Below are positions 4,175-52,184 of a stretch of 64,000 nt of DNA, piece by piece. The position numbers and the translations under genes were made by a program. Origin of the DNA: Halococcus agarilyticus. Lineage in GTDB: Archaea > Halobacteriota > Halobacteria > Halobacteriales > Halococcaceae. The notes below the pieces were generated by a model. The model made no database searches and had not been told where the DNA came from. It saw only the letters and a list, made by a program, of their open reading frames with translations. The DNA lies in assembly GCF_000334895.1 (NCBI RefSeq), contig NZ_BAFM01000007.1:1-64000 (forward strand), written 5' to 3'. Every line of letters begins with the position of its first letter. Position 1 is the stretch's first letter.

Positions 4175-4176
4175 AC

Positions 4177-4890: not shown

Positions 4891-4893
4891 CTC

Positions 4894-5316
4894 ATGAGTT
4901 CGGACTACAGAACCGGTCGCGAGGGCGAGTTCACCTACCGCGGCCACACGGTCGAGGAGCTACAGGAGATGGACCGAGAGGCGGTCGCGGAGCTGCTACC
5001 CGCACGCCTGCGCCGCACCATCGAGCGCGGCCTCTCGGTCGAACAGGAACAGCTGATCGAGGAGGCCGCCGAAAGCGGCACCGAGGAGACCGCGAACGAT
5101 CCGATCAGGACGCACCTGCGCGACATGCCGGTGCTGCCCGCGTTCGTCAACAAGACGTTCGCGGTTCACAACGGCCAGGAGTTCGAGCGGGTCCGCGTCG
5201 AGCCAGAGATGCTCGGCCATTACCTGGGCGAGTTCCAGCTCACCCGGACCTCGGTCGAGCACGGCCAGGCGGGGATCGGCGCGACACGCTCCTCGAAGTT
5301 CGTGCCGCTCAAATGA
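4894..5316 (+). CDS. rps19: 30S ribosomal protein S19
   Basis: This 140-residue protein has the archaeal N-terminal extension ([18 protein letters not shown]) before the universal S19 core ([13 protein letters not shown]) and the conserved C-terminal stretch [10 protein letters not shown] and [15 protein letters not shown]19 binds the head of 16S rRNA with S13. The start ATG at 4894 is 3 bp after the rpl2 stop. Confidence 0.96.
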
Positions 5317-5339
5317 TGGAGGATTAGAGTACTACCGCA

Positions 5340-5816
5340 ATGGGAATCAGTTACAGCGTGGACGCGGACCCCGAGCGAACGGCGAAAGCCATGCTCCGGG
5401 AGCGCCACATGAGCCACAAGCACAGCAAGGAGATCGCCCGAGAGCTGAAGGGCCAGACCGTCGCCGACGCACGCGAGTACCTCGAGAGCGTGATCGCGGG
5501 CGACCGGTCGGTTCCCTTCCGCTCACACAACTCGGGCGTCGGGCATCGCAGCGACATCGACGGCTGGGACGCCGGTCGCTACCCCGAGAAGGCCTCGAAG
5601 GCCTTCCTCGACCTGCTCGAAAACGTCGGCGCGAACGCCGAACACCAGGGGTTCGAGCCCGATCCGATGACGATCAAACACGTCGCCGCCCACAAGATCG
5701 GCGAAGTGCAGGGCCGCAAGCCCCGGGCGATGGGCCGCGCGAGCGCGTGGAACACGCCCGAGGTCGACGTCGAGCTGATCGTCGAAGAACCCGACGAGGA
5801 GGAGGGTGAGAACTGA
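5340..5816 (+). CDS. rpl22: 50S ribosomal protein L22
   Basis: The 158-residue L22 (L17e type) includes KAMLRERHMSHKHSKEIARE near residue 20 and the loop PRAMGRASAWNTPEVDVELI near the C-terminus, which in the family reaches the narrow point of the exit tunnel. Its final base is shared with the rps3 start (TGATG junction). Confidence 0.96.
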   Translation: MGISYSVDADPERTAKAMLRERHMSHKHSKEIARELKGQTVADAREYLESVIAGDRSVPFRSHNSGVGHRSDIDGWDAGRYPEKASKAFLDLLENVGANAEHQGFEPDPMTIKHVAAHKIGEVQGRKPRAMGRASAWNTPEVDVELIVEEPDEEEGEN

Positions 5817-6940
5817 TGGGCTCCGAACAGACGTTCATCGAGGACGGGATGCAGCGGACCCAGATCGACGAGTTCTTCGGCGACGAGCTGGAGCGCGCCG
5901 GCTACGGTGGGATGGACCTCGCCAAGACCCCGATGGGGACCCAGATCGTGCTCCGCGCCGAGAAACCCGGCATGGTGATCGGGAAGGGTGGGAAGAACAT
6001 CCGGAAGATCACGACCCAGCTCGAAGAGCGCTTCGACCTCGACGATCCCCAGATCGACGTTCAGGAGGTCGACGAACCCGACCTCAACGCCCAGATCGTC
6101 GCGGACCGGCTGGGCAACGCCCTCGAACGTGGCTGGTACTTCCGGAAGGCGGGCCACACCACGATCGACCGGATCATGGACGCGGGCGCGCGCGGTGCGG
6201 AGATCACCCTCAACGGGAAGGTGACGGGTGCACGCTCGCGCAACGAGAAGTTCAACCGGGGCTACATCAAGCACAACGGCGAGCCCGCCCAGAGCATCGT
6301 CGACCGCGGCGACGGCGTCGCGGTGATGAAGCTCGGGACGATCGGCGTCACCGTCAGAATCATCCCGCCGGACGCGGAGCTGCCCGACGACTTCCGCATC
6401 CAGGAGGACGTCGACACCAGCGTGCTCGAACCCGAAGAGGTCGAGGGCGACGACGTCGAGGAACTCCTCAGTGGCGAGGGCGAGGCCGACGAGCCGGTCG
6501 CCGGTCCCGACGAGTCCGAGAGCGACGAGGACTTCGAGGTGACGGAGACACCCCCCGAAGGTGACGCGGACGCCACCGAGGCCGGGGCCGAGGAGATCAT
6601 CGAGGAGGAGATCGAAGGGGAGCAGGGTGCGGCCGAGACTTCGCCGGACGAGCCCGCCGAGGCGGGCGAGGACATCGACGAGGAGCTCTCCGAGGAGACC
6701 GACGCCGCGGCCGAGGCGATCCTCGATGAGATGGACGACGCCGAGGCCGGTGCGGACCTCACCGTCATCGACGGCGTGGGCGACGCGAAGGCCGACGCGC
6801 TGATCGAGTCGGGCTTCGAGTCGGTCGCGGACGTGCGCGCGGCCAGCGAGGACGATCTCGCCGAGGCCGAAGGCGTCGGCCCGGCGTTCGCCGAACGCAT
6901 CAAGGAGGGCGCAGAGGAGTTCGACGGAGGTGACGCCTGA
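5816..6940 (+). CDS. rps3: 30S ribosomal protein S3 with C-terminal helix-hairpin-helix module
   Basis: The 374-residue S3 has the KH domain with the GKGG loop at residues 56-59 and the C-terminal S3 core to about residue 195. A long acidic linker (about 205-313) follows, and then an extra 60-residue module (314-374) with two hairpin motifs [10 protein letters not shown] and [12 protein letters not shown], a classic helix-hairpin-helix pair. Archaeal S3 is usually 200-310 residues, so this is a long form. The same module is found twice in L32e of this operon. The fusion may bind nucleic acid or serve as an assembly contact; its role is unknown. TGATG overlap links it to rpl29. Confidence 0.96.
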
Positions 6941-7164
6941 TGGCGATCCTCCACGCTGCGGAGATGCGCGACATGACGCCTGCCGAGCGCGAGGCCGAAC
7001 TCGAGGAGCTCGAAACCGAGCTGCTCAACACCCGGGCTGTGCAGGCCGCCGGTGGTGCACCCGAAAACCCCGGCCGGATCGGTGAACTCCGACGCACGAT
7101 CGCGCGACTCAAAACGATCAGAAACGAAGAGGGCGACCTCGACGGGGATGAGGGGACCGCCTGA
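6940..7164 (+). CDS. rpl29: 50S ribosomal protein L29
   Basis: The 74-residue protein has two predicted long helices with the family signature [20 protein letters not shown] and [19 protein letters not shown]29 neighbours L23 at the tunnel exit. It overlaps rps3 and rnp1 by one base at TGATG junctions. Confidence 0.95.
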
Positions 7165-7526
7165 TGGCGCTCACTCCCGCAACGCTCGCGCGACATGAAC
7201 TCTGCGGCCTGCACGCGCGGGTCGCGACGGCCGACAACCCGGCTCTCGACGGTATCGAGGGGCGGGTCGTACGGGAAACGGAGAACACGCTGTCGGTCGA
7301 GACGGATTCGACGGACGACAGTGGGACCACACCGGCCGCAAAGCAGGTGCCGAAGGCGGGCGCGACGTTCGAGTTCGCACTCGGCGGCGAGTCGGTCGCC
7401 CCGACGGACATCACCCCGGCCGACCCCGAAGCAGCCGAGACCGTCCACGTGACGGTCGAGGGCGAGCGGCTGGTCGCGACACCGGCCCGCCGCACCGAAC
7501 GGAGCAGTGATTCGACATGGCGCTAG
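7164..7526 (+). CDS. rnp1: RNase P protein component 1 (Rpp29/Pop4 type)
   Basis: This 120-residue protein occupies the position between rpl29 and rps17 where archaea encode RNase P component 1. It shows the Sm-like barrel pattern: ELCGLHARVATADNPAL, then GIEGRVVRETENTLSVET, and FEFAL further on. The protein helps the RNase P RNA remove 5' leaders of pre-tRNAs. The last 10 bp overlap rps17. Confidence 0.9.
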   Translation: MALTPATLARHELCGLHARVATADNPALDGIEGRVVRETENTLSVETDSTDDSGTTPAAKQVPKAGATFEFALGGESVAPTDITPADPEAAETVHVTVEGERLVATPARRTERSSDSTWR

Positions 7527-7945
7527 GATTGAACGTCGACGAACCCGAGACGACCTGCGATGACCCGAACTGTCCGTTCCACGGCACGGTCTCCGTGCGC
7601 GGCGGAACGGTCGACGGGATGGTCGCCTCGACGGAGATGCACAGATCGGTGATCGTCGAACGCGAGTACGACGTCACAGTACCGAAGTACGACCGGAAGA
7701 TGAAACGGCGCTCGCGCACCCCCGCGCACGCGCCCGACTGTCTCGATCTCTCGGTCGGCGACGCGGTCCGGATCGCCGAGACCCGGCCGCTCTCGAAGAC
7801 CAAGGCCCACGTCGTGGTCGGCACGCTCGACACGACCCGGGACCTCGGCGCGAGCAGCCTCTCGGGGCCCTCCGATCCCGAATCGGAAGTCGCCCTCGAC
7901 GAGATCGAGAGCACGTCGGCCGAGGAGTCGGGAGGTGACGCCTGA
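7517..7945 (+). CDS. rps17: 30S ribosomal protein S17
   Basis: The 142-residue archaeal S17 (S11e type) begins [20 protein letters not shown] and has the OB-fold core with [20 protein letters not shown] and [21 protein letters not shown]. The acidic C-terminal tail ([14 protein letters not shown]) is longer than in bacteria. It overlaps rnp1 by 10 bp and rpl14 by 1 bp. Confidence 0.95.
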
Positions 7946-8343
7946 TGGAGGCGCTCGCCGCCGACGTCACGCAGGGTCTCGAAAAGGGATCGCTCGTGAC
8001 GTGTGCCGACAACACGGGCGCGCGCGAGCTGAAGGTCATCAGCGTGTCGGGCTACTCCGGCACGAAGAACCGCCACCCGAAGGCGGGTCTCGGCGACAAG
8101 GTGTCGGTCTCGGTGACCAAGGGCACCCCCGAGATGCGCCGCCAGGTGCTCGAAGCCGTGATCGTCCGCCAGCGCAAGCCGATCCGACGACCCGACGGCA
8201 CCCGCGTGAAGTTCGAGGACAACGCCGCCGTGGTCGTCGACGAGAACGAGGACCCCCGCGGAACCGAACTCCGCGGGCCCGTCGCACGCGAAGTCGCCGA
8301 GCGCTTCGGCTCGATCGCGAGCGCGGCCACGATGATCGTTTAG
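7945..8343 (+). CDS. rpl14: 50S ribosomal protein L14
   Basis: The 132-residue protein contains the L14 signature [19 protein letters not shown] and [21 protein letters not shown]14 forms part of the subunit interface. TGATG overlap with rps17; a 14-bp gap with TAGGAG precedes rpl24. Confidence 0.97.
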
Positions 8344-8357
8344 GAGTACGAACACAG

Positions 8358-8714
8358 ATGAGCAAACAACCACACAAACAACGGACACGAACGGAGCGCG
8401 CACCGCTCCACGAGAAGCATCGCCAGGTCCGTGCGACGCTCGCTGAGGATCTCCGCGAGGACTATGGGAAACGGAACGCCCGGGTCAACGAGGGCGACAC
8501 CGTCGAGGTCCTCCGCGGCGACTTCGCCGGCGAGGAGGAAGACGTCGTGCGCGTCGACCTGAAGGACGCGACCGTCCACGTCGAGGACGTCACGACCGAG
8601 ACCGCCGACGGCGAGGAGGTCGCCCGACCGCTCGACGCGAGCAACCTTCGGATCACCGACCTCGATCTCGAGGACGACCGGCGCGAGGAGCGCCTGGAGG
8701 CCGACGATGAGTAA
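8358..8714 (+). CDS. rpl24: 50S ribosomal protein L24
   Basis: The 118-residue protein starts at the ATG at 8358; the upstream open frame overlaps rpl14 and is not used. It contains the KOW motif [18 protein letters not shown] (about residues 43-60) and ends in an acidic tail. L24 starts 50S assembly and lies near the tunnel exit. The final 8 bp overlap rps4e. Confidence 0.95.
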
Positions 8715-9504
8715 GCACCAGAAGCGCCTCTCGGTGCCGAACTCGTGGCCCGTCGAGCGCAAGACCGAGACGTTCACCGTGAAGGCGGGCGCGGGCCCGC
8801 ACGGCGAGAGCGGCGTCCCGCTGCTCGTCGTGTTGCGCGACGTGCTCGGCTACGTCGACTCCCGGAAGGAGGCGCGCTACGCGCTGAACCAGGGCTCGGT
8901 GCTCGTGAACGGCGACGCGCTCGACGACGAGGAGCGCCCGATCGGGATGTTCGACATCCTGGAGTTCGACGAGCGGAACGAACACTACCGGGTGTTCCCC
9001 GACGAGGGCGGTCGGCTCGCGCTGACGCCGATCGACGCCGCGGACGCGGACTCGAAGCTCGGCAAGATCGAGGGCAAACAGCAGGTCCCCGGTGGTGCAA
9101 CGCAGCTCGCGCTCCACGACGGCCGCACCCTCGAAATCGACGACGCGAGCGAGTACGCCGGCAGTGACTCGATCGTGGTCGACGAGGACGACGAAATCCT
9201 CGCACACTTCCCCTACGAGGAGGGCGCGCTGGTGACCGCAGTCGAGGGTCGCCACGCCGGCGAGGTCGGCGAGATCGACGACATCCAGGTCACGCCGGGC
9301 AGCTCGTCGAACAACGTCACCGTCACCCAAGCGAACGGCGACGGGTTCGAGACGGTCGCAGAGTACGTGGTCGTTATCGACGAGAACTTCGTCGACGACG
9401 AGGCCACGGACGACGCCGGCGAGACCGCGGACGACGCGGACACGGCGGCGGACGACGAGGCCGAAGCGGACGACGACGCTGACGACGGAGGTGACGACGA
9501 ATGA
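8707..9504 (+). CDS. rps4e: 30S ribosomal protein S4e
   Basis: The 265-residue archaeal/eukaryotic S4e begins [19 protein letters not shown]. An S4 RNA-binding domain ([23 protein letters not shown], split about residues 42-66) is followed by the central domain and a KOW segment ([20 protein letters not shown]). It ends with an Asp/Glu/Ala tail of about 40 residues. It overlaps rpl24 by 8 bp and rpl5 by 4 bp. Confidence 0.96.
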
Positions 9505-10019
9505 GCGAAGCCGCGGAGTTCCACGCGATGCGCGAGCCCGTGGTCGAGAAGGTCGTCGTCCACATGGGCGTCGGCGAGGGTGGTCGCGAGCTCGCGAACG
9601 CCGAGGAGATCCTCGAGGCCGTCACCGGCCAGGAGAGCGTGCGGACGCGCGCCCGGGCGACCGAGCCCGAGTTCGACATCCGCGAGGGCGACCCGATCGG
9701 CGCGAAGGTCACCCTTCGCGGCGAGACCGCCGAGTCGTTCCTCGACACCGCGCTCGACCTCGCGGACGTCTCACGCACCCAGTTCGACCAGACCGGCAAC
9801 GTGAGCTTCGGGATCGCCGAACACACCGAGTTCCCCGACCAGGAGTACGACCCGAACGTCGGGATCTACGGCCTCGACGTCACGGTCAACCTCAACCGAC
9901 CCGGCGCACGGGTGAAACGACGGAACAAGGCCACGCGCCAGCTGCCGAGCCGTCACCGGCTCGACGTCGAGGACGCAATCGCGTTCCTCGAGAACGAATT
10001 CGACGTGGAGGTACAATGA
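9501..10019 (+). CDS. rpl5: 50S ribosomal protein L5
   Basis: This 172-residue L5 has [20 protein letters not shown] near residue 13 and FGIAEHTEF followed by [20 protein letters not shown]5 binds 5S rRNA with L18 and touches the P-site tRNA. ATGA junctions join it to rps4e and rps14. Confidence 0.96.
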
Positions 10020-10189
10020 GCGAGAGCGAAACCGACACCGGCGAACACGCGACGAAGCGAACAGGTCAGTTGGAGGACTGCCAGCGCTGCGGGCGCAAGC
10101 AGGGCCTCGTCGGGAAGTACGACATCTGGCTCTGCCGACAGTGCTTCCGCGAGATCGCCCGCGGCATGGGATTCAGGAAGTACAAATGA
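10016..10189 (+). CDS. rps14: 30S ribosomal protein S14 (zinc-binding, short form)
   Basis: The 57-residue S14 starts at ATG 10016, overlapping the rpl5 stop. Two CxxC pairs, CQRC (about residues 26-29) and CRQC (41-44), form the zinc ribbon, and it ends with the family motif [14 protein letters not shown]14 is needed in the 30S head. ATGA overlap with rps8. Confidence 0.95.
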
Positions 10190-10578
10190 CGAACAACGAT
10201 CCGCTTGCAGACGCTTTGTCGGGGCTCGACAACGCCGGCCGCGTCGGCAAGCTCAATCTGACCGTACAGCCCGCCTCGAACACGATCGGCTCGGTGCTGG
10301 AAGTCATCTACGACCGGGGCTACATCGACGGCTTCGAGTTCGTGGAGGACGGCCGGGCCGGCGAGTTCGAGGTCGAACTCAGCGGCGCGATCAACCGCTG
10401 TGGCGTCGTCAAACCCCGCTACTCCGCGGGGGCCGACGAGTTCGAGAAGTGGGAGAAGCGGTTCCTCCCGGCTCGGGACTACGGCACGCTGATCGTGACG
10501 ACGAGCCACGGCGTGATGAGCCACTACGAGGCCAGAGAGCAGGGTCTCGGTGGCGAGGTGCTCGCGTACGTCTACTGA
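10186..10578 (+). CDS. rps8: 30S ribosomal protein S8
   Basis: The 130-residue S8 starts at ATG 10186 ([19 protein letters not shown]); frames further upstream belong to rps14. The C-terminal signature [23 protein letters not shown] is complete apart from archaeal variants. S8 binds the central domain of 16S rRNA. Confidence 0.96.
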
Positions 10579-10580
10579 CA

Positions 10581-11129
10581 ATGACAGAACAACGACTCCA
10601 GATCCCGGACGACGTAACCGTCGAAGTCGATCGCTTCGACGTCACGGTCTCCGGTCCAGAAGGCAACGTCACGCGACGGCTGTGGTTCCCGAACGTCTCC
10701 ATCAGTGTCGAGGATAGCGAGGTCGTGATCGCGAGCGACGCCGACGACGCGAAGACGACCGCGACGACGACCACGTTCCGGAGCCACATCGCGAACGCCA
10801 TCCACGGCGTGCGCGAGGGGTGGACCTACGAGATGGAAGTGTTCTACTCGCACTTCCCGATGCAGGTCCGCGCCGAGGACGGCGACGTCGTGATCCAGAA
10901 CTTCCTCGGCGAGAAAGCGCCGCGCCGGACGCCGGTCCACGGCGACACCGAGGTCGAGATCGACGACGAACGAGTCACGCTCTCCGGGCCGAACAAGGAG
11001 GACGTGGGCCAGACTGCCGCGGACATCGAACAGCTCACCCGCGTCAGCGGCAAGGACACGCGAGTGTTCCAGGACGGTGTGTACATCACCGAGAAACCCC
11101 AGAAGGCGGAGGTGAGTGCCGATGGCTGA
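10581..11129 (+). CDS. rpl6: 50S ribosomal protein L6
   Basis: The 182-residue protein has the two-domain L6 fold. It begins [20 protein letters not shown] and has the archaeal pattern [21 protein letters not shown] and [19 protein letters not shown] near the end. L6 lies at the factor-binding region. Its last 8 bp overlap rpl32e. Confidence 0.96.
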
Positions 11130-12084
11130 CGAGGGGTTCGAGTACCCGGCCGACGACCTCACGGCGATCGACGGGATCGGCGAGGAGAAGGCCGACGACC
11201 TTCAGGAAGCGGGCTACGAGACGGTCGACGACCTGCGCGACGCCGATCAGGACGACCTCGCGGAGGTCGAAGGAGTCGGCAACGCGCTCGCCGCGCGGAT
11301 CAAGGCCGACGTCGACGAACTCGACGTCGACGACGAGGCTGCGGAAGCCGACGACGAAACCGATGGTGAGGACGAAGCCGACGACGGGACCGACGAGGTT
11401 CCGGACGACCTCACCGACGTCAGCGGCGTCGGCGACGCGAAGGCCGACACGCTGCGCGAGGCTGGCTTCGAGTCCGTCGAGGACCTTCGCCGGGCCGAGC
11501 AGTCGGAACTCGCGGAGATCGAGGGGATCGGCAACGCGCTCGCCGCGCGGATCAAGGCCGACGTCGGCGGGCTCGAAGTCGCCGAGGAGACCGAGACCGA
11601 GGTCGAAGACGAGACCGAACCCGAGGAGGACGTCGAGACGGAGCTCCGTCCACGCGGTCTCGCCGACAAGACGCCCGAGCTCGACGAGGAGGAGAACCGA
11701 CTGCTCGCGGGGCGTCGGCGCGACTCGGGACCGGCGTTCGACCGGCAGAACCACCACATGAAGAAGCGAGTCTCGACCTCGTGGCGACGACCCACCGGAA
11801 CGCTCTCGAAGCAGCGCCGGGGCGTCAAGGGCAAGGGCGCGACCGTCGAGGCGGGCTATCGGACCGCGAAGCCGGTTCGAGGCCGCCATCCGAGCGGGTT
11901 CGAGGAGGTCCGTGTGGAGAACACGGACGATCTGGAGGGCGTCGACGGCGACACCGAAGCGGTGCGGATCGGGTCGTCGGTCGGCGGCCGGAAGCGCGAA
12001 CGCATCGAGGAGCAAGCGGAGGACGACGGGATCAGAGTACTGAACCCGACCTACGTCGAAGTCGAGGTGAACGGAGATGACTGA
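11122..12084 (+). CDS. rpl32e: 50S ribosomal protein L32e with two N-terminal helix-hairpin-helix modules
   Basis: The 320-residue protein starts at ATG 11122; a GTG six bases upstream is also possible. Residues about 10-66 and 93-153 are two copies of a helix-hairpin-helix module ([19 protein letters not shown] and [18 protein letters not shown], each with a second hairpin [10 protein letters not shown]), joined by an Asp/Glu linker. The L32e core follows from about residue 180 with [20 protein letters not shown] and [15 protein letters not shown]. One such module in the N-terminal extension is known in haloarchaeal L32e; two plus one in S3 is notable. Confidence 0.96.
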
Positions 12085-12538
12085 TCTGACCGCACAGCGA
12101 CGCCTGGCCGCGGACGTCCTCGACGTCGGGAAGAACCGTGTCTGGTTCGACCCCGACGCCCAGGGCGAGATCGCGGAGGCGATCACCCGCGAGGACATCC
12201 GCGAGCAGATCGCCAACGGAACAATCGAATCGAAGGACGCGAAGTCGAACTCCCGAGGCCGCGCGCGCGAACGCGAGGCGAAACGCGCCGCCGGCCACCG
12301 CAGCGGCCCCGGCACGCGGAAGGGGACCGCCGGAGCCCGCGAGGACCGCAAGGACGCGTGGGTCTCGCGGATCCGCGCCCAGCGCCGCCGGCTGAAGGAG
12401 CTGCGCGCCGACGGGACGCTCGATCGAACCCAGTACCGCGCGCTCTACGACAAGGCGGGCGGCGGCGAGTTCGACAGCGTCGACAGGCTAGAGACGTTCG
12501 CCACGAACGAGTACGACGTCGATATCGAGGAGGAATAA
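12077..12538 (+). CDS. rpl19e: 50S ribosomal protein L19e
   Basis: This 153-residue protein has the family N-terminus [20 protein letters not shown] and a basic central helix region ([20 protein letters not shown]). L19e is archaeal/eukaryotic-specific and bridges the subunits. It overlaps rpl32e by 8 bp. Confidence 0.96.
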
Positions 12539-12540
12539 GT

Positions 12541-13122
12541 ATGGCAACAGGACCACGATACAACGTTCCGATGCGCCGCCGGCGCGAGGTCCGGACGGAT
12601 TACCATCAGCGGTTGCGCCTGTTGAAATCAGGCAAACCCCGACTGGTTGCTCGCAAGAGCAACCGCCACGTCAGGGCGCAGCTGGTGACTCCCGGCCCCG
12701 ACGGCGACGAAACGCACGCGAGCGCGAGCTCCGGCGACCTCGCCGAGTACGGCTGGGAGGCTCCCACCGGGAACCTTCCCAGTGCCTATCTCACGGGGTT
12801 GCTCGCGGGGCTGCGCGCGCGAGACACCGATGTCGACGAGGCAGTGCTCGACATCGGCCTCAACACCGCGACGCCCGGCAACAAGGTGTTCGCGATCCAG
12901 GAGGGCGCGATCGATGCTGGACTCCGCGTTCCGCACAACGAATCGGTGTTCGCGGACTGGTCGCGCACCAGCGGCGAGCACGTCGCGGAGTACGCCGAGA
13001 ACCGGGACGAACAGCTGTACTCCGGCGAGTTCGACGCGACCGAGCTGCCGGCACACTTCGAGGAGGTACGTCAGGACATCATGGACGCATTCGACCACGA
13101 GCTTGGAGGCACCGATGAGTAG
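12541..13122 (+). CDS. rpl18: 50S ribosomal protein L18
   Basis: The 193-residue L18 begins [20 protein letters not shown] and has [15 protein letters not shown] near residue 37, the 5S rRNA-binding start of the family. The middle shows [12 protein letters not shown] and [19 protein letters not shown]. It overlaps rps5 by 8 bp. Confidence 0.96.
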
Positions 13123-13750
13123 ACGCGGCTGGGAGCCGCGCACGCGGCTCGGCAAGCAGGTCGCAGAAGAGGAGATCACCACGATGGAGGAGGCGCTGAA
13201 CTCGGGCCTCCCGCTGAAGGAGCCCGAGATCACCGACCAGCTCCTCCCCGGGCTCGAGGACGACGTCCTCGACATCAACATGGTTCAGCGGATGACCGAC
13301 TCCGGGCGGCGAGTCAAGTTCCGGTGTGTGGTCGCGATCGGCAATCGTGATGGGTACGTCGGCTACGCCGAAGGCCGCGACGACCAGGTGGGCTCGGCGA
13401 TTCAGAAGGCGATCGGGATCGCGAAGCTCAACGTCGTCAACGTCTCGCGGGGCTGTGGCTCGTGGGAGTGTGGCTGCGGCCGCCCCCACACCGTTGCGCT
13501 CCGCACCAGCGGGAAGGCGGGCAGCGTCGAGGTCGAGCTCCGGCCCGCACCGCGCGGGCTCGGGCTCGCGGGCGGGGAGACCGTCCGCTCGGTGCTCGAA
13601 CTCGCCGGGATCGAGGACATCTGGACGCGTTCGTCGGGGACGACCCGGACGACGGTGAACTTCGCGAAGGCGACGTTCAACGCGCTCCGGGCGACCGGCG
13701 AGGCCAGAGTCCCCAAAGAAACCCGCCGCAAGCGGGAGGTGATCGAGTGA
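13115..13750 (+). CDS. rps5: 30S ribosomal protein S5
   Basis: The 211-residue protein starts at ATG 13115 ([20 protein letters not shown]). It has the S5 double-stranded-RNA-binding domain [20 protein letters not shown] and the C-terminal domain with [19 protein letters not shown]. It overlaps rpl18 by 8 bp and rpl30 by one base. Confidence 0.96.
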
Positions 13751-14214
13751 TGCAAGCGCTCGTCCAGCTCCGCGGCGAGGTCAACATGAGCCAGGAAGTT
13801 CGTGATACGCTCTCGATGCTCAACGTCCACAGCACCAACCACTGTGCGCTGGTGCCCGAGACCGACACGTATCGGGGGATGATCACGAAGGTCAACGACT
13901 ACGTGGCCTACGGCGAGCCGAGCCAGGCGGTGCTCGAACGCACTCTCAGCACGCGGGCCGAGCCTGCAGAGGGAACAGGCGAAATCGACGACGAGTGGGT
14001 CGGCGAGAACACCGACTACGACGACCTCGCGGGGCTCGCGGCGGCGCTGCTCGACGAGGAGACCACGCTGCGGGAGGCGGGGCTCGCCCCCGCGCTTCGG
14101 CTCCACCCGCCGCGCGGCGGCCACGACGGCGTCAAACACCCGACGCCGGAGGGCGGCGAGCTCGGCAAGCACGACACCGACGGCATCGATGCGCTGCTGA
14201 CGGCGATGCGGTAA
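13750..14214 (+). CDS. rpl30: 50S ribosomal protein L30
   Basis: The 154-residue archaeal long-form L30 (L7e type) includes QLRGEVNMSQEVRDTLSMLN and NHCALVPETDTYRGMITKVN in the ferredoxin-like domain, then the C-terminal RLHPPRGGHDGVKHPTPEGG loop. TGATG junction with rps5. Confidence 0.95.
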   Translation: MQALVQLRGEVNMSQEVRDTLSMLNVHSTNHCALVPETDTYRGMITKVNDYVAYGEPSQAVLERTLSTRAEPAEGTGEIDDEWVGENTDYDDLAGLAAALLDEETTLREAGLAPALRLHPPRGGHDGVKHPTPEGGELGKHDTDGIDALLTAMR

Positions 14215-30672: not shown

Positions 30673-30823
30673 CCGTCGCCAGGCAACTGTGACTACTGTC
30701 CGAGCTCCCTCGGTTCCACTGGAGAGGTTGTTGAGGCATCCGAGAGTAGAGCCGAGTGTATCTCGGATCGATCACGAATCACGAGCGGATTTCGTCCCCT
30801 ACCGCTGCTGTACTCGGAACTCT

Positions 30824-30864
30824 ACACAAAGCTTATTACTTGACAATCACACAAAACTTATTAC
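30824..30864 (+). promoter_or_regulatory. Duplicated TATA-containing promoter element
   Basis: ACACAAAGCTTATTAC (30824-30839) and ACACAAAACTTATTAC (30849-30864) are a 16-bp direct repeat with one mismatch, 25 bp apart. The downstream CTTATTAC lies 27-34 nt before the ATG at 30891 and fits a TATA box; the upstream copy could be a second start site or a regulator site. Confidence 0.55.
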
Positions 30865-30890
30865 AAAACTCCAGAGTTTTCCCACTGGAG

Positions 30891-31826
30891 ATGAAGTCTA
30901 CCGATTCCCTCCACGACGCGGAGAGTTCACGGACAAACGAGCAGGGGCCATCACGGGCCGTCGATGTCACCCGTCGTCGCTTCCTTGCAGCGGGGGCAGC
31001 TGGGGTGGCAGGCCTCGGCGCGCTCGGAAACGCGGCGGCAGCTCCCAACGAGCACACGCTCGTTATCGAGGGATTCAGCCCCACTACCACGTACTCGTTC
31101 ACTGTCGGGGGCAACCTCCAGAAGAGTACGGCTGGCGGTGCGAGTATCAATCGAAGCGATCACATCATCGGCCGGAGCGCCCATGGGGCCGTCAGCAACG
31201 GAACGGACGCCTACACGTTCACCGGCGATCTCCATTCGTTCGATTTCGACGGCTCCGGTGAGATCAACGTCACTCTGGACGGCGAGCCGGCGCACGTCGG
31301 GCGTCGATCGGATCACACGCTTCTCATCGAGGGGTTCGGCCCGAACACCCCATACTCGTTCGCGGTCAGCGAGGTTGCTATCCAGAGTGACGCCTACGGT
31401 GCCAGTATCAACGATAGTGACCGGACTTCGGCGTACGGTGTCTCCGGTGCGGTTCAAGCCGGAACGGACGCGTACACGTACGTTGGGGACCTGGAGTCGT
31501 TCGACTTCGCTCGCTCGGGCGAGCTTCGGGTCACCATCGACGGGAAGCCTGCCCACGTCGGCCAGCGTCCCGACCAGTTGCTCCGTATCGGGGCCAGCGG
31601 GGAGTACACCCCATACGAGTTCTCGGTGAGTGGCTCGATCCGACGTGGTCGGCAGCTCGACGGTCAGCAGGACGACATCGACGGAAACTCGGCGTCCGGT
31701 GCCGTCAGTGGTACTGGAATCGATGCGTACGCTTACGATGGGCAGCTGACAGCACTCTCCTATCCGGACGATACTTCCCCCGAGGTACGCACCAATTATG
31801 AACTAGTTGATAAAGATAGCGTCTGA
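30891..31826 (+). CDS. Tat-exported protein with three copies of a beta-rich domain
   Basis: The 311-residue protein starts at ATG 30891 and has a twin-arginine signal TRRRFLAAGAAGVAGLG (about residues 27-43) ending near NAAAA. The mature part is three tandem repeats of about 80 residues: HTLVIEGFSPTTTYSFTV ... GTDAYTFTGDLHSFDFDG ..., HTLLIEGFGPNTPYSFAV ... GTDAYTYVGDLESFDFAR ..., and a more diverged third with TPYEFSVSGSI and GIDAYAYDGQLTAL. The domain recurs in the proteins at 26044 and 46363. No membrane anchor follows, so it is probably released or bound to the surface. Its GC content is lower than that of its neighbours. Function unknown. Confidence 0.82.
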   Translation: MKSTDSLHDAESSRTNEQGPSRAVDVTRRRFLAAGAAGVAGLGALGNAAAAPNEHTLVIEGFSPTTTYSFTVGGNLQKSTAGGASINRSDHIIGRSAHGAVSNGTDAYTFTGDLHSFDFDGSGEINVTLDGEPAHVGRRSDHTLLIEGFGPNTPYSFAVSEVAIQSDAYGASINDSDRTSAYGVSGAVQAGTDAYTYVGDLESFDFARSGELRVTIDGKPAHVGQRPDQLLRIGASGEYTPYEFSVSGSIRRGRQLDGQQDDIDGNSASGAVSGTGIDAYAYDGQLTALSYPDDTSPEVRTNYELVDKDSV

Positions 31827-39882: not shown

Positions 39883-40206
39883 TCACTCCCGGCTGTACGT
39901 GGTGGTGCGGCCCCAGCTGGTCGTCTTGCCCCAGAGGCCCGAGCGCATGCATTCGAGTTCGACGATCTGGGAGTTGTCGACGAACAGGTTGACGTTCGGG
40001 CCGAAGTTCTTGATGTACCACTCGAACATCTCGGGACCGGGGGCCTCGAACACGCAGTTTTCCATCCCGAGCTCGTTCGCGATGGTGTAGACCACGTCGG
40101 TCCGCCACTCGTGGACCTCCTCGGCGATCCCCTTCTCGCGCGGCTTGTCCGGGCGGTCGTTGACGTGCAGGAAGTCGAACGCCCGGTCGAACGGTCTCTC
40201 GGACAT
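39883..40206 (-). pseudogene. comA: Phosphosulfolactate synthase (ComA) with internal deletion
   Basis: The 107-residue frame begins MSERPFDRAFDFLHVNDRPD and PREKGI, the N-terminus of haloarchaeal ComA. It then runs at once into EEVHEWRTDVVYTIANELGM and FEWYIKNFGPNVNLFVDNSQ and IVELECMRSGLWGKTTSWGR, which is the C-terminal quarter. ComA is normally around 250-280 residues; the roughly 150-residue middle of the barrel is missing, and the reading frame is kept. The enzyme joins sulfite to phosphoenolpyruvate. Without the barrel centre it cannot be active in the known way, so it is a remnant, unless the short protein has a new role. Confidence 0.75.
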
Positions 40207-40294
40207 ACCCGTTCTGGTAGAATCGACAATCATTTAGCAGTTGGTGGCGAGCGCACCACGGTCGGCCTGCGGCCGGAACCCCCGGTGCGACGGC

Positions 40295-44192: not shown

Positions 44193-45545
44193 TCAGTCGA
44201 GCAGCGCGACGAGGTCGGCGACGTCGTGGGTTTCGAGGTTTCTGACGACGTTGACGACCTCCTCTCGGTGGTCCTCGTCGTAGCGTTCTTCGGTCATCGT
44301 GTCGAACTTCGCTTCGACCTGCTCCCACGTCATCGGGTCGGTGGGGTGGCCGCTGAACGCGTCCTTTTCGACGTGGCGGGTCGCATCGTTCGTGAGTTCG
44401 ATGTCGACGACCGCGGGCATCTCGCCGTTCTCGAAGCGCTCGGTGAGCGCCTCGCTCTCCTCGACCTCCACCGTTCGAAGGAGCTCCTGAACGTCCTCGC
44501 GCTGAATGCGCTCGGGGTCGTAGGCGTCGTTCGTGAGCTCGCGGTCGATCAGCGCCGCCGCAAGCATGTACGGCAGCGAGTGGTCGGCTTGAGCTTTCGT
44601 CTCGACTTCGTATCTCGACCCCTCGCCCCCGCCGATGATGAGCTTCGCGCCGTGGAACGTATCGAGGTGGATCGCGTTCACCTGGTCGGGATCGATGTCG
44701 GCCCGTTCGGCGAGTTCGATCACGCCCTCGACTGCGGACTGGGCGTAGGTCTCGGCGACGTAGCGCTTGGTCATCGTATCGAACACGCGCTCGCAGCCGG
44801 GATCGAGATCGACCGAGAAATCGCCCGCAATGATCTGTTTCCATCCCTTCTGGCCCTCGAAGAGGTTCGTCGGCCCGTCCATCCCGTTGTCGGCGAGTAG
44901 CGCGGAATGGACCGCGTTCCGGGCGGCGTTCGCGCTCGCAACACCTTTCCACTCGTTGATTCCCCCTGTGCGAGTGACCCGGAGCGCGTTGTGAGCGGTT
45001 CCCGCAATGCCGACCGCGTTCCGCAGCGCCTCGTGGTCGAGGCCGAGCACCTTTCCCGCGCCGGCGGCCGCCGAGATGACCGTGTGGGTCACGTGGTCGT
45101 AGCCGCGATCCCGGACTGGCGCGTTCCACGCGAGCTCGCCCTGGATCTCGTAGCTCACGCCGATCGCTTCCACGAGCTCCGCGCCGGTGGCGTCGACGTG
45201 CTCGCCGCACGCGACCAGGCTCGCGATGTTGTCGCTCGGATGGGGGGTCTCGCCGGGCGCGAGAAACGAGTCCATGAAATCCAGATACCGCGTCAGCGTG
45301 GTGTTGTACATCGCCGCTCCGGTCGGGCTGGCGCGCGTCCCCGACCCCCACAGCCGCGCGGCGTCGCCCGCGGCGGTCGTCGCGACCGTCTCGCGGACGG
45401 CCTCGACCGGCTCCGCACCCAGCGCGCCCACCGCGATCCCGACCGAGTCGAGCACGCGCTTTTTCAACTCCTCGACCGTGTCGTCGTCGAGGTCCTCGAA
45501 CGCGACCGTTTCGGTGAACGACGCGAGCTCCTCGGTCGTGGTCAT
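44193..45545 (-). CDS. MmgE/PrpD family protein (2-methylcitrate dehydratase-like)
   Basis: The 450-residue protein has the family landmarks: YLDFMDSFLAPGETPHPSDN near residue 87, AGKVLGLDHEALRNAVGIAG near 165, NGMDGPTNLFEGQKGW near 217 and SLPYMLAAALID near 323. PrpD dehydrates 2-methylcitrate in propionate use, but many family members act on other substrates such as aconitate-type acids. No propionate genes are adjacent, so only the family is sure. Confidence 0.85.
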   Translation of the reverse strand: MTTTEELASFTETVAFEDLDDDTVEELKKRVLDSVGIAVGALGAEPVEAVRETVATTAAGDAARLWGSGTRASPTGAAMYNTTLTRYLDFMDSFLAPGETPHPSDNIASLVACGEHVDATGAELVEAIGVSYEIQGELAWNAPVRDRGYDHVTHTVISAAAGAGKVLGLDHEALRNAVGIAGTAHNALRVTRTGGINEWKGVASANAARNAVHSALLADNGMDGPTNLFEGQKGWKQIIAGDFSVDLDPGCERVFDTMTKRYVAETYAQSAVEGVIELAERADIDPDQVNAIHLDTFHGAKLIIGGGEGSRYEVETKAQADHSLPYMLAAALIDRELTNDAYDPERIQREDVQELLRTVEVEESEALTERFENGEMPAVVDIELTNDATRHVEKDAFSGHPTDPMTWEQVEAKFDTMTEERYDEDHREEVVNVVRNLETHDVADLVALLD

Positions 45546-45693: not shown

Positions 45694-46053
45694 ATGAGTG
45701 AGAGCGTGGAGCCCGCGGCGAGCGCGACGGGATCGCCGGTGCGGATCACCGAGCGCGACAGCCAGAAGGTCGAGCTGGTGTTCGGCCACGACGACTCGGG
45801 GGAGCTGCTCGCCACCGCCGAGGGGACGAGCCTCCCGATCCCCGCAACCGGCGAGCCGATCCGGTTCGGCGAGATCGCGCCCAACGGGACGGACGGTCAG
45901 CGCGCGAGCTTCGGCGAGGAGACCTACGTCCCGGTGAGTCGGGAGTATCACTACTTCGACGTCGACATCGCGGACGTCCCCGAGCGCGAGGAGTCGGCGT
46001 GTCTCGTGACCGTCGTCGTCCGCGTGCTGCCGGAGGCCGCCGCCGAGGGGTGA
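45694..46053 (+). CDS. Hypothetical protein, 119 residues
   Basis: It begins MSESVEPAASATGSPVRITE and reads as a small beta-rich protein: KVELVFGHDDSGELLATAEG, GEPIRFGEIAP, REYHYFDVDIADV and ESACLVTVVVRVLPEA. No signal peptide or catalytic motif is seen. Base use and the leaderless TATA arrangement support a real gene. I do not recognise the family with certainty. Confidence 0.65.
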   Translation: MSESVEPAASATGSPVRITERDSQKVELVFGHDDSGELLATAEGTSLPIPATGEPIRFGEIAPNGTDGQRASFGEETYVPVSREYHYFDVDIADVPEREESACLVTVVVRVLPEAAAEG

Positions 46054-46162
46054 GCCACCCGCCAGCGAGCGGTCACTGCCGGGAAAGTCTCGCCCGCGCA
46101 GCCTCCCGGGAGGGCGTCACCCCTCGTTTCAGTCGCACACACTCCGGTGACATCACCGGCAG

Positions 46163-46171
46163 CTATTTATC
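46163..46171 (+). promoter_or_regulatory. TATA box of the zinc-finger microprotein gene
   Basis: CTATTTATC lies 23-31 nt before the ATG at 46194; leaderless transcript expected. Confidence 0.55.
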
Positions 46172-46193
46172 TATGCGGTGGTGATACCTTGCA

Positions 46194-46316
46194 ATGGCAA
46201 GTGAAGGGGAAACCATCGGGCAGGACGAGATCGTACGGGACTGTGAGGAATGTGGGAACGGTATGCTGGATGTCTATCTGGAAAACGGGCTGTGTTCGGA
46301 CTGTCGGACGGACTGA
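46194..46316 (+). CDS. Zinc-finger microprotein, 40 residues
   Basis: The short frame begins MASEGETIGQDEIVRDCEEC and ends NGLCSDCRTD. Two CxxC pairs (Cys 17/20 and 34/37) are 13 residues apart, with GNGMLDVYLE between, a zinc-ribbon layout. It has a well-placed TATA box. Haloarchaea encode many such tiny zinc-finger proteins, some tied to stress, biofilm or swarming phenotypes. It lies downstream of the gene at 45694 and convergent with the beta-helix gene. A longer frame in another phase over this stretch is not coding-like. Confidence 0.8.
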   Translation: MASEGETIGQDEIVRDCEECGNGMLDVYLENGLCSDCRTD

Positions 46317-46362
46317 CGTCGATCTTCTCGCGACGATTCTCCCCTGACCGTCCCATCTCCGT

Positions 46363-47985
46363 TCACACGCGGCCGTGTTCGACGTCGTACTTCCTGAGTC
46401 CCTCACTCCGCGGGGCCTCTGGTTTGTTGACCCGACAGCCGAGCATGTCGACGTCCGGCCGCTTCGCCTCGACCGGCGGATGAGCGCCGCTGCCGGTGAA
46501 CGTGACGTTTTCGAGCCGGACCCACTCGTCGCCCGGCGGGCAGTTCCCGCGCACCCCGCTGCCGATGGGGTCGACGACGACGTTCGGTACGCCCTGGGTG
46601 GTGTTGCGGATCCGGCAGTCACGCACCGTGAGCCCGCCAGCGCTGCCGTTGACGCAGATCACCCCTTCCGAGCGCGTCTCGCTGGTGTAGACGAACTCGG
46701 TGTTTTCGACGAGCCCGCCCGACGCGCCGTTCTTCTGGTTTTCCCACCACAGCCCGCGGACGTTCTGGGGCTCGCCGGTGTCCGATTCCCGGAAGAACTC
46801 GGGGTCGCGATCCACGACGATCGTCGCGTCCCTGAGCGACGAACCGGCCCCCGACAGCCGCATGTTGGTGTTCGAGTTGTTCTTGAACAGTCCGCCCTCG
46901 ACCTTCACCGCCGCCGCCTTGCTCGCGTACAGCGTGTGCGAGCCCTTGTTCTCGATGTGGCACTTCTTCACGTGTATCGTCCCGCGTGACGGCTCGCCGA
47001 TGAACACCGGGATCGTGTTCTGTGGGTAGTCCGCGACGGTCGACTCCCCGACGTTGACGTAGTCGACCACGTGCCCCACGCCGTCGGGATCCGTGACGCT
47101 CGGCGCGAGGCAGTACCCGTTCTCTTCGGCCTGGGGGTTCTCGATGCTGTTTGGAGTGTAGCCGAGATGGCGGACGTGGCGGATCTCCAGTTCGTCCTTG
47201 CAGACGGCCGCGACGCAGGTTCCCGTCTCGTGATCGTCGCGCTGGGCGAACGAGCAGTTTTCGAGGAGGAATCCGCGGCCGCCGTTGAACGCGATCGCCT
47301 TCGTCCAGTCGCCCTTCGGCGTGTAGAACCGAACGTCGCGCGGATCGCCGCCGAGACCGCGCAGTCCCCAGCTGTCGGTGTCCACGACGCTCTGTTGGCA
47401 CTCGATCAGGTACTCGCCGGGCGGGAACTCGACGAGCACGCCGCCCTCGCCGGTCGGCAGCGCGTCGTCGATGGGCTCGTTGGCCGCGGGGTCCATCTCG
47501 AGGTCGTCGACCGCGTGGACGACGCGCCCGAACTCGATGCCGTGGCGCTTCGCCGATCCGCCGCTGCTCGGCTGCTTCGTCGACGAACCACTGCTACTGC
47601 TGTCACTGCTGCCGTCGCCACCGTCGCCGTCTCCGCTGTTGCTGTTACCGCTTCCGCCGCCCCCACCGTTGCCGCCCGACCACGGCTGCGTCTCGCCGAA
47701 CGCGGCCGGCGAGCGCCACTGCTGGTCGTTGATCTTGATCCTGACCCGTTCCGGGTACTTGAATGCCATGCCGAGGCGTTTGCCGTGGTAGCGGTACGCG
47801 TCGCGGCCACCGTACACCGTGCCGTCGGCGCGGTAGCCGTTCGCCGTCTGCGTGATCGCGTCGCTCTCGTCCGTAGTCGCGCCGTGACTGGTCGTCTGTT
47901 CCGGCTTCGTGTCGCCGTCGAACGCCACCCAGTAAGGGTTGGCGTCGCCGTTGCCGTCGTCGTGAATCGTGATCGTGTGTGCCAT
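46363..47985 (-). CDS. Right-handed parallel beta-helix protein with N-terminal beta-rich domain
   Basis: The 540-residue protein has three parts. Residues 1-90 match the domain seen at 26044 and 30891 (HTITIHDDGNGDANPYWVAF ... GGRDAYRYHGKRLGMAF ... VRIKINDQQW). Residues about 100-145 are a Gly/Ser/Asp linker. Residues about 150-520 form a beta-helix with ladder-like strands (FLLENCSFAQRD, LEIRHVRHLGY, IHVKKCHIENKG, AVKVEGGLFKNNSNTN, LTVRDCRIRNTT). Pectate-lyase-like or phage-tail-like carbohydrate recognition is the usual role of such folds. No signal peptide is visible. It is the last gene of a minus-strand trio with 48684 and 49071. Confidence 0.8.
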   Translation of the reverse strand: MAHTITIHDDGNGDANPYWVAFDGDTKPEQTTSHGATTDESDAITQTANGYRADGTVYGGRDAYRYHGKRLGMAFKYPERVRIKINDQQWRSPAAFGETQPWSGGNGGGGGSGNSNSGDGDGGDGSSDSSSSGSSTKQPSSGGSAKRHGIEFGRVVHAVDDLEMDPAANEPIDDALPTGEGGVLVEFPPGEYLIECQQSVVDTDSWGLRGLGGDPRDVRFYTPKGDWTKAIAFNGGRGFLLENCSFAQRDDHETGTCVAAVCKDELEIRHVRHLGYTPNSIENPQAEENGYCLAPSVTDPDGVGHVVDYVNVGESTVADYPQNTIPVFIGEPSRGTIHVKKCHIENKGSHTLYASKAAAVKVEGGLFKNNSNTNMRLSGAGSSLRDATIVVDRDPEFFRESDTGEPQNVRGLWWENQKNGASGGLVENTEFVYTSETRSEGVICVNGSAGGLTVRDCRIRNTTQGVPNVVVDPIGSGVRGNCPPGDEWVRLENVTFTGSGAHPPVEAKRPDVDMLGCRVNKPEAPRSEGLRKYDVEHGRV

Positions 47986-48012
47986 CGGTGAATCGAGTTG
48001 CGCTCTCGTCGT

Positions 48013-48684
48013 TCAGTCGTCCTGCGGGACCGTCGCGTTCTCCGCAACGCGAATCCCGCGGGCTTCCGCGATACGGACGCCGTGGCCGACGGTGATCGTG
48101 ACGTCGCGGCCCTCCGCGACCCGGATCTCGGGGGCCGTCGGCGCACTCGATCCGTCGACCGCGACCGAGCGGCCTGGCGCGGCCGGACTCCCATCGCACT
48201 CCTTCTCGTCGCTTCGCCGTTCGGACCCGTCGCTCTCGCGTGCCGTCCCCTTCGTCGCTGTCGTCGAGGACTCCGTCGTTGCCGGTGTGTCCTCCGAGGC
48301 CGGATCGGTCGAGCTCCCGCCGCCGACGGATTCGTCCGTCGCCGGTACGGGCGCGTCGTCGGCCGCTCTGGCTTGCTGTGTGGCCCTGACCTGTCGTGTG
48401 GTTCGTGGCGCAGCGCCGCCGTCGCTCGACTCGGCCGTTGCGGTCGGTGCTCCGTCGTCGGGATCGGTCGTCTCGATCCGTGGAACCGCGACGCCGCCCC
48501 GCGTCGCCCGGTCGCGCTCCGATCGGTCGGCCGTCGCGGCTCCGGTCTCGGCCTCCGTGTTGGGTCGCGGTGAGCCATCGTCACTGCTCCGACCGTCGCC
48601 GTCCGCTTCGTCACTGCCCTCGTCGTCCGTTCCTCGATGCTCCGCCGTGGTCCCCTCGCCGAGGAGTTTTTCGGTGAATTCCAT
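48013..48684 (-). CDS. Acidic low-complexity protein with beta-strand repeat tail
   Basis: The 223-residue protein is Asp/Glu/Ser/Thr/Ala-rich and probably disordered (residues about 10-180). The C-terminus has three similar turns, EIRVAEGRDV, GVRIAEARG and IRVAENATV, which suggest a small beta-solenoid or a docking tag. No signal peptide. It lies 27 bp before the beta-helix gene on the same strand, so they are probably co-transcribed. I do not recognise the family. Confidence 0.55.
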   Translation of the reverse strand: MEFTEKLLGEGTTAEHRGTDDEGSDEADGDGRSSDDGSPRPNTEAETGAATADRSERDRATRGGVAVPRIETTDPDDGAPTATAESSDGGAAPRTTRQVRATQQARAADDAPVPATDESVGGGSSTDPASEDTPATTESSTTATKGTARESDGSERRSDEKECDGSPAAPGRSVAVDGSSAPTAPEIRVAEGRDVTITVGHGVRIAEARGIRVAENATVPQDD

Positions 48685-48744
48685 CGTGTGTGGTTCGTCG
48701 TGTTCGGTCGTCGATCGTCTCGCTGTTCCAGCCGGGGCTGGTCG

Positions 48745-49071
48745 CTATCTCCCGCCGCCACCGCTGCGATTGCTCCCCCAGCTCTCGAACGCCATCTCGC
48801 CGAACGCCCAGACGCCGGCGGCCCCGACGAGACTCACGTAGACCACTCGCATCTCGACCGGGATCGCCCCCAGGTCGATGATACCCCGTCCGGCGATCGC
48901 CAACAACCCGATGAACGAGAGGGTGAGGACGATCGCGAGGACGTCGTTCGTCAGCCAGAACCGCGCCCTCGTGGACGTCGTGTCCTCCGTCGTGCCTTCG
49001 ACATCGACGATCGTTTTCTCGCCCGTCTCGCCGCCAGTGTTCGATGGCTGCCCGCGTTGATTGGATGACAT
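48745..49071 (-). CDS. Small membrane protein, first gene of the beta-helix locus
   Basis: The chosen ATG gives 108 residues beginning MSSNQRGQPSNTGGETGEKT. Two transmembrane helices follow, VLAIVLTLSFIGLLAIAG (about 49-66) and VVYVSLVGAAGVWAFGEMAF (about 78-97), and a Gly-rich end. The open frame continues upstream for 62 codons without conserved features. Holin-like and anchor-like proteins share this layout, but no family can be named. The gap to the next gene is 60 bp. Confidence 0.6.
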   Translation of the reverse strand: MSSNQRGQPSNTGGETGEKTIVDVEGTTEDTTSTRARFWLTNDVLAIVLTLSFIGLLAIAGRGIIDLGAIPVEMRVVYVSLVGAAGVWAFGEMAFESWGSNRSGGGGR

Positions 49072-49332
49072 TGGTTGTGCTCCGGTGTTCGCGTCGAACG
49101 GCGCTGCGATCGCTCCGCGATGCGTCGCTGTTGTGTTCTCCCCGTCGTCAGTTCGCCCGGTGGCTGAAAGCAGCCGTCGAGACGACCGACTGTCGGCTCG
49201 GGAGTCATCCGCGTCCGCGACGCGTCGTCCGGGGCGTACGTCTCGGAGTTGTCGCACACGAACAAAACCTCGTCGTCGGTCTACAGATCAGTACTGTTCG
49301 GACCGATCGTTCCTACGCGTACCGATCGCTCC

Positions 49333-49626
49333 CTACGTCCGTGCAGCCGCCCACACCGCCGTCAGTCCGAGCGCGAGCGCGGGAAGCAGCGGAAGGACGA
49401 GAAAAGTATCGCGCCACGTCAGTCCGAGCGCGCTCAGCGTACCGCCGGCGTACGGTATCGCGAGGATCAGTCCGGGCGCGATCAGGAAGGCGACGACGAT
49501 CACGCCAACGAGGATCCAACCGCGCCAGTCGAACGAGCGATTCTCGCCGCGTGCAGCGGCCTCGTCGTACTCGCTCCGTGGACTCTCCTCGAACGCCTCC
49601 GGGTCGTGGACGTACTCGTCGGTCAT
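49333..49626 (-). CDS. Small membrane protein of unknown function
   Basis: The chosen ATG gives 97 residues, MTDEYVHDPEAFEESPRSEY, then DWRGWILVGVIVVAFLIAPG and a second helix DTFLVLPLLPALALGLTAV. Haloarchaea have conserved short proteins with this acidic head and two helices. It is divergent from moaB. The region from 49072 to 49332 shows no gene. Confidence 0.65.
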   Translation of the reverse strand: MTDEYVHDPEAFEESPRSEYDEAAARGENRSFDWRGWILVGVIVVAFLIAPGLILAIPYAGGTLSALGLTWRDTFLVLPLLPALALGLTAVWAAART

Positions 49627-51560: not shown

Positions 51561-52184
51561 TCAGTTCGTGTCGCTACCCTCGTCCCGGCTCTCCTCCTCC
51601 TCACGCTGGCGCTGGCGCTGCTCCTCGGTCAGTTCGTCGATCTTCCCCTCGACCTCGTCCTCCCGGGGTCGTCGATCGACGCGCTCGTTGACCTCCTCCA
51701 CTCGCTTCGTGACCTCGCCGACCTCCTCGGAGACCGTCTCCTCGACGCGCTCGTCGACCTCTTCGGCGACCGTCTTCTCCACCCGCTCGTCGACTTCCTC
51801 GGAGACCGTCTTCTCGACCCGTTCGTCCACTTCCTCGGAGACCGTCTCCTCGACGCGCTCGTCGACCTCCTCGGTGAGCACTTCCTCGACCTCGTCCTCC
51901 CGGGGTCGCCGATCGACGCGCTCGTTGACCTCCTCGACGCGCTGCATGACCTCGTCGACCTCCTCCGAGACCGTCTCCTCCACCCGTTCGTCGACCTCCT
52001 CGGTCATCCACCGGGGATCGAACCGGGCCATCTTCCAGCCGACGTGGATGGCGTAGGAGACGAGCACGCCCAGGCCGAACGCGACACCGACCGCGGTGCC
52101 GACGGTGAGGATCAGGGCGACCGAGACGAAGATCAGTACGCCGTAGGTGAAGTCGACGATGGAGTCGACGCGATTCGGATTCAT
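51561..52184 (-). CDS. Membrane protein with long repetitive coiled coil
   Basis: The 207-residue protein has two helices at the N-terminus (VDFTYGVLIFVSVALILTVG and TAVGVAFGLGVLVSYAIHVG, about residues 10-49). From about residue 60 to 190 it is built of a 12-residue unit EEVDERVEETVS repeated about six times, interrupted twice by the block RVEEVNERVDRRPREDEVE. The strict repetition suggests a rod-like coiled coil facing the cytoplasm, with recent internal duplication. Function unknown; it may tether something at the membrane. Confidence 0.75.
   Translation of the reverse strand: MNPNRVDSIVDFTYGVLIFVSVALILTVGTAVGVAFGLGVLVSYAIHVGWKMARFDPRWMTEEVDERVEETVSEEVDEVMQRVEEVNERVDRRPREDEVEEVLTEEVDERVEETVSEEVDERVEKTVSEEVDERVEKTVAEEVDERVEETVSEEVGEVTKRVEEVNERVDRRPREDEVEGKIDELTEEQRQRQREEEESRDEGSDTN

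Follow-up and report, generated by a model that had tools for sequence, protein, structure and literature searches.

The window, i.e., the whole 64,000-nucleotide stretch of Halococcus agarilyticus DNA analysed here, carries three neighbouring minus-strand genes encoding proteins of 108, 223 and 540 residues (p108, p223 and p540). The gaps between them are short (60 bp for p108-p223 and 27 bp for p223-p540) and the same order is kept in three species, which bears out the operon-like unit proposed in a preliminary description of this DNA, as well as the positions, strand and sizes given there. The following features were distinguished:

48745..49071, minus strand: p108, 108 aa, with an acidic N-terminus, two transmembrane helices and RFWLTND...WAFG motifs; the constant gene of the cassette
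48013..48684, minus strand: p223, 223 aa, acidic, of low hydrophobicity, probably disordered; N-terminal MEFTEKLLG conserved, IRVAE/VRIAE stretch at the C-terminus (about 48031-48129)
46363..47985, minus strand: p540, 540 aa, signal-less and spike-like (N-domain, Gly/Ser linker, beta-helix)
47671..47985, minus strand: N-domain of p540 (residues 1-105), all-beta, in a version common to a Halococcus provirus protein
47551..47670, minus strand: Gly/Ser-rich linker of p540 (residues 106-145), recognized from the sequence
46441..47547, minus strand: beta-helix head of p540, of a subfamily differing from the syntenic copies in two other Halococcus genomes (G004 and G005)
46050..48650, no strand assigned: exchanged (variable) segment, about 55% DNA identity vs. 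about 93% on the p108 side
49072..49332, minus strand: non-coding region of 261 bp upstream of p108, probably a promoter plus leader, 90-97% identical in three species
49333..49626, minus strand: gene of a 97-aa membrane protein, the constant flank on one side
44193..45545, minus strand: MmgE/PrpD-like gene, the constant flank on the opposite side

The surroundings of the trio are those of an ordinary haloarchaeal chromosome, with host genes as neighbours. A contractile injection or virus cluster, considered for positions 2000-14000, was excluded, as the long plus-strand block there is a ribosomal protein operon. Two further minus-strand genes of the window were recorded: a phosphosulfolactate-synthase-like gene of 116 aa (39883-40233), which has lost about 172 codons internally and in frame (the G004 copy has 288 codons), and a membrane-protein gene (51561-52184) in which EEVDERVEETVSEEVDE is repeated in a long, coiled-coil-like tandem array.

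Besides the window genome (G000), the trio occurs in two of nine other Halococcus genomes (G004 and G005), in the same order and between the same flanking genes. It was found nowhere else among 394 genomes of the taxonomic order, and no close copies were detected in viral contigs, named genomes or plasmids. The co-occurrence that the preliminary description had expected in haloarchaea and their viruses was thus seen within Halococcus and was not found in other haloarchaeal genera or in the viral contigs searched. Since the block is kept in two other species, the reading frames are not grouped by chance; the trio is a conserved syntenic unit with operon-like spacing. In six sister species, an acetolactate-synthase-like gene of about 526-561 codons lies at the same site, between the MmgE/PrpD gene and the gene of the 97-aa membrane protein. 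The simplest reading is a single acquisition in the ancestor of the three species, followed by vertical retention. No capsid, portal, terminase, tail or integrase genes were found near the trio in the three syntenic loci or at the site in the six species. A resident tailed virus or tailocin carrying the trio as cargo was unsupported, as the window genome gave no Baseplate_J or portal match.

The two helices ascribed to p108 were recovered as hydrophobic segments (19-residue mean up to 2.28), and with 108 aa the protein fits the holin size class (1-3 transmembrane helices); neither a Pfam nor a holin family match was obtained. Its profile matched phrog_32830 (2.1e-11) and phrog_26168 (3e-5), and the PHROG family is listed as of "unknown function". 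Relatives are encoded by several haloviruses, i.e., phiH1_200, located directly after the invertible tail-fibre region, HVTV-1 gene 23 and HCTV-5 gene 28, by virus contigs (L103, L104, L107 and L108) and by provirus-like loci (L056-L060 and L063). In L103 and L108 the p108-like gene adjoins terminase and portal genes, and in L107 it follows a tail-fibre region. In the family alignment R, TND and W.FG are invariant. For HCIV-1 ORF10 the similarity to p108 is suggestive at most (E 0.9). As a match of phiH1_200 the phiH1 paper lists EMA49173.1, a cellular protein, and C450_17958, a locus tag of Halococcus salifodinae, is named in the record. The nearest relatives of p108 are chromosomal copies in another family (L052-L054). 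Chromosomal relatives lie near antiporter, glutamate dehydrogenase and cytochrome oxidase genes, and p108 relatives elsewhere stand in other contexts, with no beta-helix genes. The p108 tree does not resolve the branching and, as the nearest copies are chromosomal, we do not claim a viral origin for p108; the family is common to viruses and hosts, with no direction of transfer claimed.

Two observations concern the neighbours of p108-like genes in other loci. A second small membrane protein (PDGA..APHHLY) is encoded directly after the p108-like gene in L060 (L060:7346-8016) and L107 (L107:8007-8582), and also in the same chromosomal cluster as this gene in L052-L055; the two genes possibly form a two-protein membrane cassette common to viruses and hosts. 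In L103 the stretch between the p108-like and terminase genes (L103:4265-7403) encodes a protein that lacks a signal and has a metalloprotease-like HExxHxxGxxH motif; this protein and the p108-like one are a candidate viral egress pair.

Protein p223 has the acidic, disordered-type composition attributed to it (D/E 21%, large hydrophobics 10%, no hydrophobic segment). The repeated IRVAE turns of the preliminary description were reduced to two exact copies and one RIAE near the C-terminus, and the motif is not kept in the orthologues.

None of the three proteins has a signal peptide, as had been noticed before. The N-terminus of p540 contains no hydrophobic stretch, RR/Tat motif or lipobox; the frame upstream of its ATG closes after 9 codons, and the start is identical in G004 and G005, so that the protein is signal-less in all three species. 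Its composition of a recurring domain and a probable beta-helix agrees with the first description. Residues 1-100 match a domain in the window gene at 30756-31826 (phmmer 2e-6). This plus-strand gene encodes a Tat-signal protein made up of three copies of the N-terminal beta domain of p540. Beyond the trio, the p540 version of the N-domain gave three weaker matches among the 394 genomes, all within Halococcus. One homologue is a signal-less protein of 331 aa (L071/L110; 30% identity, 5e-7 and 7e-7), encoded upstream of the terminase gene in a provirus of H. saccharolyticus (G004). This provirus is of the tailed type (terminase 4.6e-20, portal 9e-57), and from its context the 331-aa protein would be located in the virion. 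A match in genome G006 (L080/L084) was excluded as a viral protein, being a Tat-exported repeat protein. The predicted structure of the N-domain has nine beta strands at fair confidence (pLDDT 78), and a Foldseek search with this model against the PDB and viral models gave no match below E 0.001.

The beta-helix assignment rests on family comparisons. For residues 337-464 the similarity to Pfam Beta_helix is weak (E 0.0023) and the head as a whole reaches 5.6e-4, both short of the curated cut-off; members of its family reach 5.6e-8. Similarity of the head to haloarchaeal beta-helix family members is much stronger (E 1e-28 to 1e-46). The cellular homologues inspected are Tat-exported, and those with the closest heads are encoded in polysaccharide loci, beside glycosyltransferase, sulfatase and polysaccharide-biosynthesis genes. 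The head is also related to viral proteins: the 50-kb IMG/VR contig 3300021446_000210 (L109) contains three signal-less beta-helix ORFs between baseplate-hub and Baseplate_J (E 4.6e-26) genes, and two of the three are matched by the p540 head (2e-12 and 9e-6). The resemblance to phage tail spikes noted earlier is in keeping with these baseplate-cluster ORFs; p540 itself is encoded outside a virion gene cluster. In L109 the three ORFs are consecutive (L109:3594-8135), and the N-terminal part of the first resembles a baseplate spike. A tblastn search of phage records with p540 returned nothing, PDB sequence searches with the head, N-domain and p108 profiles gave nothing significant, no catalytic site was identified in p540, and the model of the full protein was unusable (pLDDT 35).

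Comparison of the three syntenic loci revealed a sharply bounded exchange. Between G000 and G004/G005, DNA identity is about 93% across the 97-aa gene, the leader and p108, drops to about 55% from the first p223 codons (about 48650) to past p540 (about 46050), and returns to about 85-90% in the gene beyond; within the exchanged segment, the p540 N-domain forms an island of 75% DNA identity. At the protein level p108 is 90-94% identical across species, the first 13 residues of p223 are 85% identical and the N-domain 75%, whereas the head of G000 shares 33% with those of G004 and G005, which are 92% identical to each other. The window p540 ends after the helix, whereas the G004 and G005 proteins have an extra C-terminal domain. 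As a control, two Tat-exported beta-helix orthologues were compared between the same species and proved to be 75-78% identical, so fast drift alone cannot explain the divergence of the head. Maximum-likelihood analysis of the heads placed that of G000 with its counterparts from Halobaculum and Haloferax (97/83 and 96/89) and separated it from those of G004 and G005; it lies among Tat-exported cellular proteins, apart from the viral sequences, whose branches are long. From the drop in identity, the control orthologues and the tree it follows that the head and most of p223 were exchanged, the head for a beta-helix of another subfamily, and that p108 stayed constant.

The intact frames and low dN/dS values indicate purifying selection on the trio: for G004 vs. 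G005, dN/dS is 0.13 in the N-domain and 0.12 in the head, and across pairs it is 0.2 in the N-domain and 0.2-0.5 in p108. Synonymous divergence of p108 is low (dS 0.09-0.15 vs. 0.25-0.4 in flanking genes), alongside a leader that is 90-97% identical.

Sequence similarity links p108, the N-domain of p540 and its beta-helix, each separately, to proteins of haloarchaeal viruses or proviruses. The spike architecture is probably of virus type. Our preferred reading, to which we give a little short of an even chance, is that the trio may be a glycan-directed spike cassette of virus type that one Halococcus clade has kept in its chromosome. Protein p540 would then fold in the cytoplasm, as virion spikes do, which would account for the missing signal peptide. 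Its N-domain would be the attachment end, and the beta-helix head would bind or trim polysaccharide, plausibly that of the Halococcus wall or of competitors; a glycan target differing between strains could explain why the head was swapped. In this arrangement p223 would serve as a flexible, bridging adaptor, and p108 would dock the complex at the membrane or else, acting like a holin, let the folded protein out. The latter option is suggested by its small size, its two helices and its occurrence in unrelated haloviruses; as p108 matches no holin family, the release step is a hypothesis that we regard as unlikely. Against a spike cassette speak the position of the trio outside a virion cluster, the lack of Baseplate_J and portal matches in the window genome, the chromosomal copies nearest to p108, the grouping of the head with Tat-exported cellular proteins and the lack of an identified catalytic site; the N-domain, too, also occurs in host proteins. 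The co-occurrence in three sister species may reflect one acquisition event, which also weighs against it.

The tether, spacer and head of the preliminary description suit the pattern of conservation, in which p108 is constant, the start of p223 and the N-domain are conserved, and the beta-helix is swapped. What this proposal lacks is an evident route outward, since the trio is signal-less where the cellular homologues inspected bear Tat signals and p108, with two helices, has its N- and C-terminus on one side of the membrane. It amounts to a host surface system, in which p540, a beta-helix surface/EPS protein deprived of its Tat signal, would reach the outside by some other means, the tether being provided by p108 and the spacer by p223. 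The polysaccharide loci of the closest heads, the N-domain in Tat-exported host proteins and the chromosomal position of the nearest p108 relatives all point this way; a start that is signal-less in all three species would nevertheless call for a dedicated route, and this version of the N-domain has a signal-less relative inside a provirus, so that we consider such a system unlikely. Viral ancestry accounts for the missing signal better than ordinary surface display does. The absence of a signal would also suit a role on the cytoplasmic side at the time of infection (superinfection exclusion or interference with assembly), in which p108, with both termini inside, would hold p223 and p540 at the inner membrane face and the viral modules would act as decoys. 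In its favour are the lack of signals in proteins that have viral relatives, their two-helix partner in the membrane, a swapped head reminiscent of an arms race, and the presence of tailed proviruses in Halococcus; it is not obvious, however, what a glycan-type head would bind in the cytoplasm, and no defence-gene neighbourhood was seen among the genes listed around the trio, which makes this role decidedly unlikely.

The viral relatives of p108, the N-domain and the head, together with the different gene held at the site by six sister species, would also be expected if the trio were left over from an ancient provirus or satellite and now served the host in no way. The three frames are nevertheless intact in three species with low dN/dS, and no further viral gene or integrase adjoins the trio; a remnant is accordingly improbable. 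Finally, the genes might be unrelated neighbours that travel together by chance and share no function, as the p108 relatives in contexts without beta-helix genes could suggest. This we judge very improbable in view of the 27-60 bp spacing, the order kept in three species and the fact that this is the sole such combination at the site.

The spike-cassette reading bears on poorly known biology. The Halococcus wall is a rigid, highly sulfated heteropolysaccharide, and no free Halococcus virus is known or has been isolated (PMC13321033); entry and exit of haloarchaeal viruses through the cell envelope are poorly known (PMC13321033, PMC4456609). A provirus of 37,096 bp has been described in Halococcus saccharolyticus DSM 5350 (contig AOMD01000033; PMC13321033). 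The tailed provirus of G004 corresponds to IMG/VR contig UViG_2554235495_000005 (37,096 bp, identical at the positions checked), and from the matching size and sequence we infer that G004 is H. saccharolyticus. Outside this 37-kb provirus, the same genome contains a Baseplate_J gene (G004:C2:131727-132164; 7e-13), which is a second tailed element.

No description of the trio was found in the open-access literature searched. The preliminary label of an undescribed surface locus missed the viral link, as the domain and beta-helix are general haloarchaeal modules and the p108 family is common to haloviruses. The components are of known kinds; what appears undescribed in the searchable literature is their combination, together with the lack of signals and the exchange of the head. 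The cassette pairs a protein family found in unrelated haloviruses with an exchangeable beta-helix head, offering a small testable system for p108-type proteins, and it bears on a possible reuse of viral spikes by archaea against walls of polysaccharide. It might even be a host-domesticated archaeal release system, in which a holin-like p108 would export a signal-less, strain-variable, glycan-active spike in Halococcus. This is a long shot; if true, it would be an archaeal counterpart of holin/endolysin-type secretion, serving wall remodelling or attack on related strains.

Precedents for such a release come from two systems. In Serratia, export of a folded enzyme without a signal depends on a holin, for which a Tat signal can substitute (PMC9527704), an interchange that echoes the Tat-bearing homologues of signal-less p540; for the halovirus HRTV-DL1, a glycosyl hydrolase and a holin-like protein were proposed to act in egress (PMC10384203). 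Serratia ChiW/ChiX and the HRTV-DL1 lysis model resemble the trio in combining a small membrane protein with a signal-less or glycan-directed partner; the likeness is one of layout only, p108 having no sequence match to a holin family. The products of phiH1_200, HVTV-1 gene 23 and HCTV-5 gene 28 share with p108 its size, two helices and the R-x-W-x-TND and W-x-FG motifs; the viral copies of the phiH1_200 family are 35-38% identical to p108, and the trio copy is nearer the chromosomal ones. Haloarchaeal right-handed parallel beta-helix proteins (WP_284063768.1 of Halobaculum, WP_275880709.1 of Haloferax, and L007 and L008 of the window genome) are 29-36% identical to p540 (about 350 aa) and have the type of accessory domain in common with it, but they carry a Tat signal and domain repeats behind the helix, whereas p540 has no signal and its domain in front. 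The beta-helix ORFs of L109 are signal-less like p540 and adjoin baseplate genes, whereas p540 is encoded away from any cluster of virion genes and differs from them in its N-terminal domain. The 331-aa protein of the H. saccharolyticus provirus differs in its C-terminal part, which matches no family and is not alignable to the p540 head, but, like p540, it is signal-less and begins with the homologous N-domain, followed by a Gly/Ser linker.
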